Source of the DNA: Verrucomicrobiales bacterium
Lineage (GTDB): Bacteria; Verrucomicrobiota; Verrucomicrobiia; Verrucomicrobiales; DEV007
Direction of reading: 5' to 3'
Length of the DNA stretch: 38,001 bases
NCBI GenBank assembly: GCA_013911195.1
Contig: JACETS010000002.1
Location: 1-38,001, forward strand
Under the pieces are notes generated by a model, which searched no databases, was not told the DNA's origin, and saw only the letters and a program-made list of their open reading frames with translations. Each line of letters starts with the position of its first letter. The first letter of the stretch is position 1. Positions 14,249-28,819 of the stretch are shown here, piece after piece. A program made the translations under genes and the position numbers.

Positions 14249-15604
14249 TCAATCGATCTTTTCTTTTGCTTTATCTGCAGTTTCTTTTGCTCCTGGGTTT
14301 TTGGGCGTTGCTAATTCAATTTTCCCATCTCCAAATGCTATTACAGCCCCTTCTCTAAGCAACCAATTCAGATCTTGTAAAACTTTTAGCTGATTTTCAT
14401 TTAGTTCTTCTATTTCCGAATCACTTTTTGATGAATCTTGATCGGTTTTTGAGTCAGTGTTTTCGCTTGATGGAGCAAGTTCATCAAGTAGTTCTTTGCT
14501 GGTCACTCTTTTTCGATCACGAATAAAAGTAACAATGGCTTTGATTGGCTCAGACAGGGTGTCGTCATCTGAAAGAGGCTTAGGCCGTGAAATGCAGGCA
14601 AAAATTTTCTTACCTCTTTTAAAGAATTTCAATCCTTCATTACCCAATATTGTACATATAGGGTTAACTAAACTGGCAGGGTGTTTTTTCGCATGTATAG
14701 AAGTATTCTTAACCAATGCTAGTAAACCAGAGGAGAGCATTTTTCCTTCGATGTTACCGGGAACTGTGAATTTAATACCAGCCTCGACCAACTCCTCAGC
14801 GTAATTATTTAAGAAGTGATTTTCAGCTTCTTCTCGGCCCTTTAAAACTATTTCCTCATCATCAGTTTTGTTTTTAATAGAATATTGATCCTGTACACTT
14901 TGAGCTTTTTTCCATTTCTCTACTAACTCTTCACTGGATTCAATTTTTATCTTATTTTTGAAAGTTTCTAATTCAATATTTGGAAATTTATTTTTGTGAA
15001 GACTGATTATTTCTTTTTGATATGAGTGGTGATTAGGAGGTCCAATTAAGGTACCGCTTATTCCGCAGATTCCAATTGAATGATAATTACCTTTAGGGGC
15101 CTCTATTTCGACACTTTCTTTATTGTAGTAATTAAGCAAAGTATTTTCATCCAAAAGGCTATTCAGAGCCTCGTTTTTACTTAACCACAATGAGTTGTTA
15201 GAGGTACCAAAAAATAAATTGTTCTCTTTTTCACTCTCACACTTGAATGATATTTCATATCGCTCTCTTTGCGATAAGATCAGTTTTGCTATTTCAAATA
15301 CTGAATATGATCTTGCTGTTTTTTTAATTTGATCAGCAATTTGTTTAAGGCTCGATGCGCAGGGAAGAATTTCTGCTTTAATTCCCTCTGGAGGAACAAT
15401 TCTTTCTGTTCTTTCTTGATGATTCCTATTGCGGTTAAAATTTTTATTTTTTCCCTTAGACCATTTTTTTCTTTTTACCTCTTTTTTGTCATTCTTATTT
15501 CGAAATCTTTCTTCCTTAGGGAAGTTTTGTTTTTTCGGATTTTCTTTTAACCAATCGGGAACTAATTGGAAATTAGAAAGATCAAGGGGACTTTGGTCGC
15601 TCAT
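14249..15604 (-). CDS. Uncharacterised protein, basic N-terminal tail, possible RNA/DNA binder
   Basis: I do not recognise a named family in this 451-residue protein. Residues ~22-68 form a low-complexity, strongly basic tail rich in Lys, Arg and Asn (KRKKWSKGKNKNFNRNRNHQ), of a kind that often binds nucleic acid. Then comes a compact segment PPEGIKAEILPCASSLKQIA and TARSYSVFEIAKLILSQRER, a middle part with ICGISGTLIGPPNHHSYQKE, and a region ISRPKPLSDDDTLSEPIKAI that leads into a helical stretch. A charged linker (SSENTDSKTDQDSSKSDSEI) precedes NENQLKVLQDLNWLLREGAVIAF, which looks like a small winged-helix end. There is no signal peptide or membrane segment. It precedes the APS kinase fusion by about 50 bp on the same strand. 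A role in translation or RNA metabolism is a guess from composition. Confidence 0.72.
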   Translation of the reverse strand: MSDQSPLDLSNFQLVPDWLKENPKKQNFPKEERFRNKNDKKEVKRKKWSKGKNKNFNRNRNHQERTERIVPPEGIKAEILPCASSLKQIADQIKKTARSYSVFEIAKLILSQRERYEISFKCESEKENNLFFGTSNNSLWLSKNEALNSLLDENTLLNYYNKESVEIEAPKGNYHSIGICGISGTLIGPPNHHSYQKEIISLHKNKFPNIELETFKNKIKIESSEELVEKWKKAQSVQDQYSIKNKTDDEEIVLKGREEAENHFLNNYAEELVEAGIKFTVPGNIEGKMLSSGLLALVKNTSIHAKKHPASLVNPICTILGNEGLKFFKRGKKIFACISRPKPLSDDDTLSEPIKAIVTFIRDRKRVTSKELLDELAPSSENTDSKTDQDSSKSDSEIEELNENQLKVLQDLNWLLREGAVIAFGDGKIELATPKNPGAKETADKAKEKID

Positions 15605-19279: not shown

Positions 19280-21262
19280 TTGTTTATTGTGATTAGTAAA
19301 GAATCAGATAGTTCCGGAAATCTTAATAATTTCGATGATATAATTGATATTGATTTGGCTAGAATTGTTCTTTTTACCAATGATCAAAAGTACTCTCGAC
19401 GTATTTCGACTTTAGCCATACAGGAGGGATTTGAGGTTACGACATGCTCAGATTTTGCTAGTCTTCAAAATTTAATCAAAAGCACTAAATTTGATGCTTT
19501 GCTATGTGATGTTCCCGCATCATCTTCAAGGCTCGAAGACTTACTTGGTTGGGTTTCAAAATTGGGAAATTCAAAACCTTATCTAATATTAAGCATAGCT
19601 CGAAATTCAGAGATTAATTTTTCAAAGTTAATCCATTATGGAATAGATGAATTCATATACGATGATTCGAAAGATGAAGAAATTCGATCAAGATTTAAAC
19701 TCATTGAAGCGAGGCTTAAGAAACAAGATTATTTGACCCAAAAATTTTCTAAACTTCGTCGTGATCGAAAAAGATACGAAAGTTTATTCATCGAATCGCC
19801 TGAAGCTATGCTTGTCCTGCAAAATAGACAGGGAAAAGTTATAGGAGTTAACCGTTCTGTTAAAGCTGTTCTTGGTTATGATGGCAAGGCTTTATTGGGT
19901 AAATATATGTCTCTTATATTTCCTCAAATATTCGGTAAGGATGGTTATGCATCGAATGGAGAAGTGATCAGTGGATCTACAATCCTGCAGTCAATACCTT
20001 ATCGTAAGCCGGATGGAAAAATGACTTCCCTAGATATAATGATGTCAGCCATTCCATGGGATTCAGGGTATGCATTAGTAATGTTATGTAGAGATGTCAG
20101 TTATAGAAACAACAAAAAAGACGATTCGATACTAGATTCAAAGAAAAAAGCAATTGAGTGTTTTGCAGCAGGAATTTCTGATGAGTTTGGAGATTTATTT
20201 ACTTCTATCGAAGGTAATCTTAATTTAATTGGCCTTGATCAATTAGCTGGCGGTGAGACCGGTGAAGCAATTAAAAGCGCTAAATCAGCTTGTGAGAGAG
20301 CTAGAGAAATTATCCATGAGGTTTCTGCTATTAGAGGAAAAGCAAAAGGCATCACAAAGAGAAGGGTGTTACTTCCTAAAATTATTAGAAATACATTAAG
20401 CTTTTCTCTGTTCGAATTTGATAAAATAAAGCCAGTTATAGATATTGCTCCTCAGCTCTTCGAAATTGATGCCGACGAAGGTCAATTGCGTAGAATGTTT
20501 GGGTCATTAATTAAGAATGCTGCCCAAAATATTTCTAGAGAAGATAGAAATCCAGGAGAGATAGTGATAGAAGGAAAAAATTTAGTAATCGAATCTGATG
20601 ATGATTTACCCCTAAGTCCTGGTAATTATGTGCATTTGTCTTTTAGGGACAATGGTCCTGGGCTTACTCTTGAGGAAAAGAACCGGGTCTTTGACCCTTA
20701 TTATAGTCGAGAAAAAAAGGGAAGAGGATTTGGTCTGAGTAGAGCAGCAACAATTTGTCGATCACATGGTGGCCACATATCAGTTGATTCTGAAGAAGGT
20801 AATGGCGCGTGTTTTGATGTTTTCTTACCCGCGGCGATGTCTAGTCGTGGTTTTGATGAGTCACAAACTTCTCGTTCGAATGCTCTTCGAGTATTGGTCT
20901 TGGATGATGAGCCTCATATTTGTGCAATTGTTGAAAGGTCCCTTAGGCGAGAGGGTCATGACGTTTACTGTACCTCAACAGGAAAGGCGGCGATGAGAGC
21001 TTTTGAGAAAGCAGAAGAATTTAAAAGATCATTTGATGTGCTTATTCTTGACCTAGATATTCGCGGAGGAATTGGAGGAAATGAAACGCTAGCACGCATT
21101 CGATCAATTAAACCAAATGTCAAAGCAATAGTAACGACAGGATATGTTGATGATACCGTTTTAGAGAACTATCTAGAACACGGGTTTTCAGGAGTTTTGA
21201 CGAAGCCGTTTCGAATTGAAAAATTAATCTCTACCGTTGAGAGATTAGGTAATCAAGGGTGA
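19280..21262 (+). CDS. Hybrid PAS sensor kinase lacking the phospho-accepting His
   Basis: This 660-residue cytoplasmic protein has no membrane segments. Domains in order: a receiver-like domain (residues ~28-130) that lacks the usual acidic pair and Lys; a PAS domain (~165-275; LFIESPEAMLVLQNRQGKV); a dimerisation helix region (~290-350); a HATPase domain (~375-525) with N box SLIKNAAQNIS, G1 FRDNGPGL and G2 KKGRGFGLSRA; and a C-terminal receiver (~537-655) with acceptor D591 in LILDLDI and Lys in LTKPF. The region that normally reads GGIAHDFNNLL reads AGISDEFGDLF, so the acceptor His is Asp301. ATP binding looks intact but classical autophosphorylation should be impossible. The start is TTG 19280; GTG 19289 is an alternative. 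It stands alone, divergent from polX, with no obvious partner. Confidence 0.9.
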   Translation: MFIVISKESDSSGNLNNFDDIIDIDLARIVLFTNDQKYSRRISTLAIQEGFEVTTCSDFASLQNLIKSTKFDALLCDVPASSSRLEDLLGWVSKLGNSKPYLILSIARNSEINFSKLIHYGIDEFIYDDSKDEEIRSRFKLIEARLKKQDYLTQKFSKLRRDRKRYESLFIESPEAMLVLQNRQGKVIGVNRSVKAVLGYDGKALLGKYMSLIFPQIFGKDGYASNGEVISGSTILQSIPYRKPDGKMTSLDIMMSAIPWDSGYALVMLCRDVSYRNNKKDDSILDSKKKAIECFAAGISDEFGDLFTSIEGNLNLIGLDQLAGGETGEAIKSAKSACERAREIIHEVSAIRGKAKGITKRRVLLPKIIRNTLSFSLFEFDKIKPVIDIAPQLFEIDADEGQLRRMFGSLIKNAAQNISREDRNPGEIVIEGKNLVIESDDDLPLSPGNYVHLSFRDNGPGLTLEEKNRVFDPYYSREKKGRGFGLSRAATICRSHGGHISVDSEEGNGACFDVFLPAAMSSRGFDESQTSRSNALRVLVLDDEPHICAIVERSLRREGHDVYCTSTGKAAMRAFEKAEEFKRSFDVLILDLDIRGGIGGNETLARIRSIKPNVKAIVTTGYVDDTVLENYLEHGFSGVLTKPFRIEKLISTVERLGNQG

Positions 21263-24852: not shown

Positions 24853-26091
24853 CTATTGCTTCCATTTGAATTTGGAAATACCCTTAAGTTCACGAACAAA
24901 TATTTCATCTCCACAAAGGGCAAGGTGAGCCCACGTCGATTGATCTGAAACTTTTTTAGTATCTATTATCTTAAACTCCTTTGGAGTTAGGGAGAAAATC
25001 AATAATTCTCCATCTGCCTTTAATGCTAATACAGAATCTCCTTTGGCAACAAGAGAGGCGTAATCACTATGTTTTTTCTCAGAACTCCACATGACCTTAC
25101 CTGAATTTGCTTCGAAACAGTGAAACCTCTTATCCCTTCCATGCATGTAAACATATCCTTTGTGGCTGATTGGCGAAGACATATAGCCCTCAGTTTTATT
25201 GGTCCAAGTTTTGGAAACCTCTAGGCCTTTGGGCTTTGTAGATACCGTGAAAAGAAAACTGCCTCCTCCGTAACTACTTGTAAATAATGAATCTCCTATG
25301 ACCGTTGGGGTTAAAATATTCATTCCTCTAAAAGCTTTGACTTTGTAGCGCCACAGTACTTTTCCTGTTTCTAAGTCAAGACCTGCAATCTCTTCTCTAG
25401 TCTGAGTGAGTAGTTGATTTTTGCCTCCAACTTCTGCAATTATTGGAGAGGAAAAGGCACTGCCTGACATTGCTCTGTCATCTTTCATTGCTCCCCATAC
25501 CTTTTTGCCGTCAGAGCATTTAAGTTTGACCACCTGAGCTCCAGCCTGAATGTAGAGATGATCACCCAAAATTACCGGTGAGGATACAAAACCAAAAGTT
25601 GGAACCGTTGATTTTTCAGTTTTAACAAAATCTATTTTCCATTTTTCTTTACCTGTTTGAGCGTCTAATGCAACGAGGACATCCCTGATTCCACCAACAT
25701 ATAAAGTGCCATTATCATAAACTGGGGTAGATCGCACCCAACTTCCATTTTTTCTGGCAAAGAATGGAACTTTCATGGCTCCCTCCCAGGAAGTTTCCCA
25801 GAGTTGTTTGCCCGTTTTTCTGTCGAACGCTCTGGTGATCTCGTACGTCTTGTCTTTGGTTTCTACTGTAAATACTTTATCTGCAGTTATTATCGGACTC
25901 GAATAGCCCTCGGCTAGAGGTTTATTCCAAACCTTTTCGATACCTTTCAAATTTTTAGGCCACTCAAATGACTGATCTTCTATGATACCGTTTCTATTTG
26001 GACCTCTCCATTGTTCCCAAGTGGGGGAATTCGCCAAAATAGATTGGATTGAGATAATTCCAAGGGTAAGGAGAGCTAATTTTGTTTTCAT
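24853..26091 (-). CDS. Secreted PQQ-like beta-propeller protein
   Basis: This protein of 412 residues (from ATG 26091) has a signal peptide, MKTKLALLTLGIISIQSILA, then WEQWRGPNRNGIIEDQSF, the usual opening of PQQ-like propellers in Planctomycetes and Verrucomicrobia. Repeats with the Trp-docking pattern follow: FDRKTGKQLWETSW, LDAQTGKEKWKIDF, LKCSDGKKVWGAMK, LDLETGKVLWRYKV and FEANSGKVMWSSEK, making a BamB-like propeller. It is not clear whether it binds a quinone cofactor; there is no catalytic dehydrogenase signature, so a scaffold or sensor role is as likely as an enzyme. The track's TTG start at 26115 would put eight residues before the signal peptide, so I prefer 26091. The gene lies about 50 bp behind the HEAT/TPR gene on the same strand and is probably co-transcribed. 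Confidence 0.88.
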   Translation of the reverse strand: MKTKLALLTLGIISIQSILANSPTWEQWRGPNRNGIIEDQSFEWPKNLKGIEKVWNKPLAEGYSSPIITADKVFTVETKDKTYEITRAFDRKTGKQLWETSWEGAMKVPFFARKNGSWVRSTPVYDNGTLYVGGIRDVLVALDAQTGKEKWKIDFVKTEKSTVPTFGFVSSPVILGDHLYIQAGAQVVKLKCSDGKKVWGAMKDDRAMSGSAFSSPIIAEVGGKNQLLTQTREEIAGLDLETGKVLWRYKVKAFRGMNILTPTVIGDSLFTSSYGGGSFLFTVSTKPKGLEVSKTWTNKTEGYMSSPISHKGYVYMHGRDKRFHCFEANSGKVMWSSEKKHSDYASLVAKGDSVLALKADGELLIFSLTPKEFKIIDTKKVSDQSTWAHLALCGDEIFVRELKGISKFKWKQ

Positions 26092-26140
26092 ATTGAAATA
26101 AACGGAATAACCCAAAACTCAGATCTACAATTTATTGAAA

Positions 26141-28819
26141 TTATCGATCAGTGGGTTTTCCCGTCTTAAATCTCTCGAGTTGGCGTTTTACTTGTTTATC
26201 ACCATCTAGCAATTCAACCGCTTTTTTTGATATTTCTATGGCCTTTGTGCGATCACCTAACTGAAAATAAACTTCGGCTAATGTATCAAGAAATGCTCCG
26301 TTATCTGGGTCTATACTGACGGCCTTGTTGGCATGAGCCAGTGCTTCATCCAAATTTTTTGCACATCTGGATAATAACCAAGCATGATTATTATTGTGCT
26401 GACCGTGATCAGGGAAACGATTTACAGTTGATTTTGAAATCGAATAGGTGGTTTGAAATAATTTGTCTGCACCCTCTGAATTCCCACCGTCAACCAACAA
26501 TTGATATATGTCCTCTAGCATTGAGCTGTCAGATGGATTGATTTTTTGTAGTTCTTCAAGTCTTCTTTCTGCATCCTTTATTCTGCCATCTGATATTTCT
26601 ATTTTTGTTTTAGTTATTTCTAGATCCACTAAGTAACTTAATGATCTTCTGGGCGATAAAACACTGTTTGCATTAACGGGTCTCATTTTGGAAAGCATGT
26701 AAAATTCCAAAGATTTAGAATACTGTTTAAGATCTTTTGAGTTTATGCTTTGATCAAAGTATCGGCGGCGAAGCGCTTCAGGATGAACGCTTTCTCTTGG
26801 AGAAGCAATGCCTAGTATTATATTATCTTGAATGCGTGCTAATGCATCATCCTCATTTTGCCACATTGTAGTTGCCAGATGGTGGCGTTTAGTTAGTTCA
26901 CCTGTTGATATTAAAGAAGCGATTTTTTTTAGTTTTTGACCTTCTTCTTTTTGGCCAATTGCCTCCATAGCAACTCCTTTGAGGTATAATGGAATGGGAT
27001 CTGATTTTTTGCTTTCACATGCCTTGTCATATTGTATGACTGCTTTTTCTGGCATGCCTGCTTTCATTAGAACGTCACCATACTTCATGAAGTGATATCC
27101 TACTGCCTCGCCACCAATAAGTTCTAGCCATAGTTTAGTTGCATCGACAGTTAATTCCCATTTTTCATGTAAACGTGCTAAGTCTCTGGCCCCTCTGATG
27201 AGTTCTTTTTTCATGGCCAAATTCTTTTCATCCTTAGCGAATGAAAAAAAAGATTTGATGCATTGATCTGCAAGGTTTATCTGATTTTCATTTTGATTTT
27301 CAAGATCAAATAAAGACTCCATCCTAGAGAGTTTTTGTTCTGAACTCTCATTTGGATATTCCGATGTTATAAATTTCCAACAGGTTCTACCAAGCCATGA
27401 GTACTCAGCTCGTAGTTGAAAATAACCTTCAACTATTTCTTCTGGAGGCTCTCTTTTCATAGCTTCCAGCGCATGTCTTTTTGCTAGTTTATTTAAGCCT
27501 ATCATTCTTTCCCACTGAATTAGTTGGATTAGACTGTTATTTTTACGGATAAGTATTTCTTTTATTTTCTCCAATATTCTTTCAGCTTCATCAATTTGAC
27601 CTGTGATGTAGCAGGCACTAGCTAATTGACCTACAGGGAATAATGATTCTTGTAATTCACCTTCATTTTTCGCCTTAAATGAACTTTCGTAATTCTGAAG
27701 CCATTTAGAATAAGGTCCTTTCTTCTTTTGAATTCCTATTGAATTAAATGCTTCGTCAAAATTATACCTCCAAAGTTCCATATCAAAAATTTCCTTTCCT
27801 TTCACCTTCTTAGTTAAACTAAAGGCTGCGATTGCTTCACCATTTATTACTAAAGCATTGATGCATCTTCCAAGCTCATCTTTCATTGCCATAGCATATT
27901 CTTCAATGCTGCTTTTAATTCTATTAAATCTTTCCATGTCGCCTGAAAGTCTGGCTGCTGCAGCGGAAAATCCTAGGGAATCAATAGTTTTTCTAGTAGG
28001 GTCAACAAATGAATTTGCATAAGAGATTAAATCTCCACCAGCTGATAGAGAATGACGTGCTCTGGTTTTGTCTCCTAATTGTTCAAAAATAGTTGCCGCT
28101 TCCTGATAGTCTCCTTTTGCTCTTAGCATCCATGCGAGTATTTCTGCATCAAGGTTAGAATTTTTAGCAGCGATTCTTTTTTTACTAATTGCAGATTCGA
28201 TTTGGTTTGTTTCGACTAGGAAACTTGCATAATTTCGCATCCCATTATGATCCAGTGCAGCAACTTCTAAGAGTTGTCCAGCTTCATCAATTTTATTTTC
28301 TAATATGAGAGAAGGTACTTGCTCAGAGATATTTCTACTAACAATTTGAGCGACCATTTTTCTTATTCCTATGTCGTTCTCTCTTTTTATCAGTTTCATT
28401 AAAAGTTCAGTCTTTCCGAGTTCAGCCATTTTGATGATAGCGGCTTCTTTTTTTACTCCGACCCCTGAACGATAATCATTAATTAACTTCGCGATGTCCT
28501 CTGGAGTATCCGGGTAAAGACCTAGTTCAAATTCTTCTAAAATCTTGGTGCCTCTGTAGCGCAATTCTGGACCTCCATTTTTTAGCGCATCTCTAAGTAA
28601 GGGCTCAGCGCTTTTACCAAATTTCCATAATTTCTGAGTTGCTGATTCTCTAATTTTAAAATTATCAGAACCGATTTTTTTGATGGTTTCTAGTATTTCC
28701 TTTTTTTGCGATTCTGGTGTCTCATTATCAGATTCCTCTGCTGATACCTTGATGAATGTAAATGCAACCAACAATGCAGTTGTTATGGATAATGATTTTT
28801 TGGGCTGCAATAAGGCCAT
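26141..28819 (-). CDS. Large secreted HEAT/TPR-repeat protein
   Basis: This is an 892-residue protein with an N-terminal signal (SLSITTALLVAFTFIKVSAE), so it should be periplasmic or envelope-associated. Residues ~38-150 look like HEAT repeats (NFKIRESATQKLWKFGKSAE, PELRYRGTKILEEFELGLYP), the arrangement often seen at the front of secreted PVC proteins. The remainder is TPR-like helical repeats, clearest at the C-terminus: ALAHANKAVSIDPDNGAFLD, TLAEVYFQLGDRTKAIEIS. Other repeats include YHFMKYGDVLMKAGMPEKAV and IPLYLKGVAMEAIGQKEEGQ. No catalytic domain is visible. Such proteins are scaffolds whose partners are unknown. It precedes the PQQ-propeller gene by about 50 bp on the same strand, and the pair may act together in the envelope. 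Confidence 0.85.
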   Translation of the reverse strand: MALLQPKKSLSITTALLVAFTFIKVSAEESDNETPESQKKEILETIKKIGSDNFKIRESATQKLWKFGKSAEPLLRDALKNGGPELRYRGTKILEEFELGLYPDTPEDIAKLINDYRSGVGVKKEAAIIKMAELGKTELLMKLIKRENDIGIRKMVAQIVSRNISEQVPSLILENKIDEAGQLLEVAALDHNGMRNYASFLVETNQIESAISKKRIAAKNSNLDAEILAWMLRAKGDYQEAATIFEQLGDKTRARHSLSAGGDLISYANSFVDPTRKTIDSLGFSAAAARLSGDMERFNRIKSSIEEYAMAMKDELGRCINALVINGEAIAAFSLTKKVKGKEIFDMELWRYNFDEAFNSIGIQKKKGPYSKWLQNYESSFKAKNEGELQESLFPVGQLASACYITGQIDEAERILEKIKEILIRKNNSLIQLIQWERMIGLNKLAKRHALEAMKREPPEEIVEGYFQLRAEYSWLGRTCWKFITSEYPNESSEQKLSRMESLFDLENQNENQINLADQCIKSFFSFAKDEKNLAMKKELIRGARDLARLHEKWELTVDATKLWLELIGGEAVGYHFMKYGDVLMKAGMPEKAVIQYDKACESKKSDPIPLYLKGVAMEAIGQKEEGQKLKKIASLISTGELTKRHHLATTMWQNEDDALARIQDNIILGIASPRESVHPEALRRRYFDQSINSKDLKQYSKSLEFYMLSKMRPVNANSVLSPRRSLSYLVDLEITKTKIEISDGRIKDAERRLEELQKINPSDSSMLEDIYQLLVDGGNSEGADKLFQTTYSISKSTVNRFPDHGQHNNNHAWLLSRCAKNLDEALAHANKAVSIDPDNGAFLDTLAEVYFQLGDRTKAIEISKKAVELLDGDKQVKRQLERFKTGKPTDR

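Follow-up and report, generated by a model that had tools for sequence, protein, structure and literature searches.

A predicted hybrid pseudo-histidine kinase with a conserved receiver in a lineage of Verrucomicrobiales

The locus and the encoded protein

The window, by which we mean the whole stretch of DNA that was analysed (38,001 nucleotides), belongs to a Verrucomicrobiales bacterium whose genome assembly is 71.5% complete and divided over 186 contigs. One of its genes encodes a protein with the layout of a hybrid histidine kinase (Table 1) and is situated among amino-acid and housekeeping genes (5324-37838). The extent of the gene is mirrored in the orthologue of G004, where the stop-to-stop frame measures exactly 660 residues and the first residue is the same.

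Table 1. Coordinates of the kinase-like gene, its parts and its neighbours in the window
Feature	Position	Strand	Basis or remark
Release factor gene	5324		
Semialdehyde dehydrogenase gene	7307		
Hybrid pseudo-histidine kinase gene (predicted), 660 aa, TTG start	19280..21262	+	(pseudo)REC - PAS - DHp - CA - REC; order from Pfam and AlphaFold
Degenerate N-terminal receiver, residues ~26-148	19355..19723	+	acidic pair and Lys gone; acceptor-position Asp77 kept
PAS domain, residues ~160-278	19757..20113	+	Pfam; conservation highest here and in the C-terminal receiver
DHp helical hairpin, residues ~282-351	20123..20332	+	AlphaFold helices 282-319 and 325-351; pLDDT mostly 50-70
Altered H-box AGISDEFGDLF, residues 297-307	20168..20200	+	sequence
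Asp301 (GAT) at the phospho-acceptor His position	20180..20182	+	sequence; alignment with relatives
Asp305 at the His+4 (phosphatase) position	20192..20194	+	alignment; function of the position from PMC3510030
CA (HATPase_c) domain: N413, G1 D457, G2 GFGL	20360..20833	+	sequence, Pfam
C-terminal receiver, residues ~537-657, full catalytic residue set	20888..21250	+	Pfam, alignment
Receiver phospho-acceptor Asp591	21050..21052	+	invariant in 24/24
Receiver Lys642	21203..21205	+	invariant in 24/24
serA-like gene	21300		
ilvD	23072		
Prephenate dehydratase gene	30365		
Glutamate synthase subunit genes	31681 and 36255		

Pfam matches were obtained for the PAS domain, the ATP-binding domain (HATPase_c, 1.7e-17) and the C-terminal receiver (Response_reg, 1.6e-25, best stretch 538-653); the match to HisKA stayed below threshold (14.4 bits vs a cut-off of 26.9). 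An AlphaFold model (mean pLDDT 73.8) arranges the protein as receiver, long helix, PAS, DHp hairpin, CA and receiver, with a pTM of 0.44 that is low and leaves the relative placement of the domains unreliable. The PDB folds nearest to this model include PAS/LOV-histidine kinases, ShkA, NifL, CckA and DivL.

The family was sampled with 24 proteins (the window protein included) from 12 genera and two families of one order, gathered from the relatives, the family and the order; all of them fit the family profile clearly better than other hybrid kinases do. The N-box Asn (N413), the first residue of the G1 box (D457) and the receiver residues D591 and K642 are invariant in this sample (24 of 24). 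The C-terminal receiver of the window protein has in addition the acidic pair D542/D543 and T620, so that the claim of an intact receiver stands. The sequence-only reading had likewise called the N and G boxes intact, which is true for the window protein (G1 box D457-N-G-P-G461, G2 GFGL) but not for the congeners G006, G008 and G009 (loci L086, L088 and L087), where the second Gly of the G1 box is lost (DNGPE or DNGPK instead of DxGxG); nucleotide binding may thus have been lost in this subset of the genus.

The N-terminal receiver had been described as degenerate. Its acidic pair (now T-N) and Lys (now Asp) have indeed been replaced, which sets it apart from functional receivers, yet an Asp is still present at the acceptor position. 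The decay is stepwise: the domain is canonical in class-level homologues, keeps one acidic residue, the acceptor Asp and the Lys in genera g17, g15, g6 and g8, and has only the acceptor-position Asp left in the window's genus.

The gene order plsY-polX-[kinase]-serA-ilvD, in which serA, polX and plsY were assigned by reading of the sequences, is common to g1, g17, g15 and g6, and no conserved two-component gene was found beside the kinase at the compared loci. Neither the kinase gene nor the polX and serA orthologues were found in the congeners G001, G002, G003 and G005; as all three are missing together, the region is taken to be absent from these incomplete genomes and no gene loss is implied. 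Elsewhere in the window, a minus-strand ORF of 451 residues (14249-15604) has no Pfam match at 1e-5 and a place that is conserved in nine genomes of the family, and a PQQ beta-propeller protein and a TPR-rich protein of 892 residues (24853-28819) keep their position in several relatives.

The acceptor position and its history

The sequence and the alignment confirm that the H-box of the window protein carries an Asp codon where the phospho-acceptor His is expected, and D301 falls unambiguously on the His column when aligned with its relatives, His-bearing ones included. The His of the DHp alpha-1 helix is absent from 20 of the 24 family members (19 of the 23 sampled relatives of the window protein), and His-less members occur in 10 of the 12 genera. 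Compared with the 0.9% of HisKA domains in general that lack it (722 of 76,471; PMC12632262), the loss in this family is beyond chance. The residue that has taken its place varies: Asp is fixed in the sampled members of the window's genus (6/6) and recurs in g10, Gly occupies the position in g17 and g12, and Arg is found in g15, g6, g8 and most of family f3, one member of which has Ile. The idea that Asp is a meaningful replacement is therefore not borne out. The His is kept by four proteins, namely that of G017 and those of three g4 genomes.

The other hallmarks of a catalytic HisKA domain, an acidic residue directly after the acceptor and the N-box Asn, are present in the window protein (E302 and N413) as in the whole sample (E/D and N in 24 of 24). 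A substitute acceptor is not apparent: the DHp has no other conserved His, and the family alignment has no invariant His column at all, the single nearly invariant one being H634, inside the receiver. Given the missing acceptor, autophosphorylation of the window protein would not be expected. Judged by its sequence the protein is a pseudo-histidine kinase, a classification that follows from the His-less orthologues across genera, the low dN/dS and the conserved locus. A search of the literature for bacterial hybrid kinases without the His, verrucomicrobial or other, yielded nothing specific.

Two trees were built without the H-box columns. In both, the 24 members form one clade with G017 as the first branch, and two changes from His suffice to explain the distribution; a single His-less clade was not rejected by the AU test (p-AU 0.117 and 0.175). 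Within the window's clade Arg is basal and is followed by Gly and then Asp (tree, parsimony R>G>D), an order that fits single-base codon steps (CAT>CGT>GGT>GAT). Position 301 has probably passed through His, Arg, Gly and Asp, with Gly as the direct predecessor of Asp, and in view of this tree-implied path it is the missing His and not the Asp itself that matters. The His-bearing protein of G017 adjoins serA and ilvD, the same side of the locus as in its His-less relatives, which identifies it as an orthologue and the His as ancestral. The same follows from the sampled next-best matches, which are ordinary hybrid kinases with the His, and from full-length class-level homologues of the same layout, which also carry it (AHDLNNIL); its absence thus characterises most of the family. 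Orthologues with His had been named as a possible sign of a strain mutation; they do exist (4/24), but the conservation of Asp in the genus and the 20 His-less members speak against that origin.

A second change, which had escaped the sequence-only reading, lies four residues further on. Every His-bearing protein of the trees has Asn there. Of the 20 proteins without the His, 18 have Asp, and the other two, from G018 and G030, keep the Asn and might retain phosphatase activity. Transmitter phosphatases of the HisKA type have Asn or Thr here, where the window protein has Asp305. CrdS needs this Asn for its phosphatase activity: in the N375D mutant kinase activity was not measurable and phosphatase activity was not significant, whereas removal of the His alone (H371A) left phosphatase activity in place (PMC3510030), in agreement with the conclusion that the His is not essential for this activity in HisKA proteins (PMC12632262). 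By analogy with these mutants, the window protein probably lacks transmitter phosphatase activity.

Constraint on the domains and possible partners

Selection was estimated with a Nei-Gojobori script, and because dS often approaches or exceeds saturation, the resulting dN/dS of about 0.05-0.13 for the whole gene is rough; it agrees with the earlier claim that the gene is not decaying. For the pairs with measurable dS, the values by domain were 0.01-0.05 for the C-terminal receiver, 0.02-0.045 for the PAS domain, 0.03-0.15 for the DHp, 0.09-0.23 for the CA domain and 0.17-0.24 for the N-terminal receiver. Purifying selection is thus strongest on the PAS domain and the C-terminal receiver, and in most species pairs weakest, among the five domains, on the N-terminal receiver.

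Across the deepest split of the genus (window versus G009) the PAS domain is 81% and the C-terminal receiver 75% identical. The emphasis differs in two control kinases of these genomes that bear the His (G007-G009): they are least conserved in their N-terminal part (36% and 36%), and the conservation of their C-terminal receivers (66% and 46%) is below that of the window protein. The CA domain (51% vs 44% and 58% in the active controls) is no more relaxed than theirs. With the N-box and most G-boxes kept, some ATP- or ADP-dependent function may persist.

Hpt domains (PF01627) were not detected in any of the six members of the window's genus, one of them a 94%-complete genome, by a search that used one Pfam model on partly incomplete MAGs. 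A classical His-Asp-His-Asp relay through the C-terminal receiver is therefore not apparent. Hpt domains are present in the control genomes and in some relatives. We also considered whether loss of the His tracks absence of Hpt, but the relation is not clean, as the His-less G016, G018, G020, G098 and G120 have Hpt; in the His-bearing G090 no Hpt was detected. The genome of the window does encode ordinary His-bearing hybrid kinases (C50 and C153), which are possible phosphate donors to the C-terminal receiver.

Interpretation and comparison with known systems

Considering all of the above, the gene is most likely not broken; it would encode a regulator that acts on other kinases and is itself non-catalytic. 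With moderate confidence we favour a hybrid pseudo-histidine kinase akin to DivL and RetS, controlled by its PAS domain and phosphorylated on its receiver in trans. The DHp-CA dimer, catalytically dead, would take its conformation from the PAS domain and engage another histidine kinase or the response regulator of that kinase. The C-terminal receiver would serve as a sink or a reporter, accepting phosphoryl groups from an active kinase instead of relaying phosphate made in cis. What favours phosphorylation in trans is the missing acceptor His, the selection on the PAS sensor, the DHp-CA scaffold and a competent receiver, and the RetS and DivL precedents. Against it, the gene has no linked partner kinase, and a complete receiver could also take acetyl phosphate. 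Signalling by conformation and phosphorylation of the receiver by another kinase had both been proposed from the sequence and are still the best readings of it. More tentatively, with both transmitter activities apparently disabled, possibly twice, and the receiver still constrained, a former kinase may have become a phosphate-receiving sensor of the activity of other kinases, with the flow of the signal reversed.

It is also possible, if rather doubtful, that the dead DHp-CA core binds a phosphorylated response regulator and signals to a partner kinase by conformation, with the C-terminal receiver as an internal allosteric part only. DivL, the closest functional precedent and a match in fold and sequence (4q20), is itself without kinase and phosphatase activity, and the acidic residue after the acceptor position is conserved here. 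However, DivL lacks a receiver, whereas in the present family the receiver and the PAS domain are the most constrained parts; together with the invariance of the catalytic residues of the receiver, this suggests that its phosphorylation matters.

A self-contained switch is unlikely. In such a protein ATP or ADP and a PAS ligand would set the conformation, and the C-terminal receiver would be phosphorylated by small-molecule donors or contact an output protein. The invariant N413 and D457 would fit, as would the recovery of NifL (9qq6), itself built as PAS-DHp-CA, by the structural and the profile comparisons. NifL works through its conformation and the binding of nucleotides, has NifA as its target and is not known to carry a C-terminal receiver. 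Nucleotide binding, however, appears to be unequally maintained, as the three congeners without the second G1 Gly indicate, and no output gene, NifA-like or other, adjoins the window kinase.

A dedicated phosphatase of a response regulator, an option of the sequence-only reading to which CrdS H371A and the dispensable His lend some substance, is very improbable in view of Asp305 and the N375D result. That the protein is an active kinase with Asp301 or another residue as acceptor seems hardly credible: Asp is fixed in the genus, but sister genera have Gly or Arg, one relative has Ile, and the DHp lacks a conserved His. The incompleteness and fragmentation of the assembly could hint at an artefact or a decaying gene, which we consider extremely improbable: the same residue in independent orthologues rules out a strain mutation or assembly error, and the conserved locus, the lack of internal stops and dN/dS values that stay well below 1 for each domain rule out decay.

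The favoured reading, a trans-phosphorylated hybrid pseudo-histidine kinase, can be compared with several known proteins. RcsD is kinase-like, does not autophosphorylate and works in a relay (PMC5651002), but has an Hpt domain where the window protein has a receiver. CckA is the best solved sequence match for the DHp-CA part (5idj, E 5.9e-37) and shares the order PAS-DHp-CA-REC; it is, however, active, has the His and feeds ChpT, whereas the window protein has neither the His nor the Asn four residues beyond. RetS of Pseudomonas aeruginosa is a hybrid sensor kinase whose REC2 Asp receives its phosphate in trans from GacS and whose kinase core inhibits GacS (PMC5992135), and both features fit our proposal. 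The transmitter phosphatase activity of RetS, which is lost in a T428A mutant (PMC5992135), would have no counterpart in a protein with Asp at His+4.

DivL of Caulobacter crescentus shares PAS-DHp-CA, a lineage-wide non-His residue at the acceptor position and the preserved N and G boxes. Neither kinase nor phosphatase activity has been reported for it, and its dead core acts as a sensor (PMC4211667). The acceptor position of DivL is a conserved Tyr, and a receiver is lacking. In the window's family the position has varied between D, G, R and I, and the kinase-like part is joined to an intact receiver, so that the window protein falls outside the DivL group. A missing acceptor His is rare, and its best-studied bacterial case, DivL, has no attached receiver; the present family provides a natural series from His-bearing proteins (G017 at the same locus, g4) through intermediates with Arg or Gly to Asp, and the phosphatase residue has changed too. 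The family thereby makes the path from kinase to pseudokinase, and the role of an intact receiver on a dead kinase, amenable to testing. Pseudo-histidine kinases are known as a kind; what is unusual is a hybrid form that occurs in two families of an order, has His-bearing orthologues, carries a second disabling change and keeps its receiver strongly conserved.
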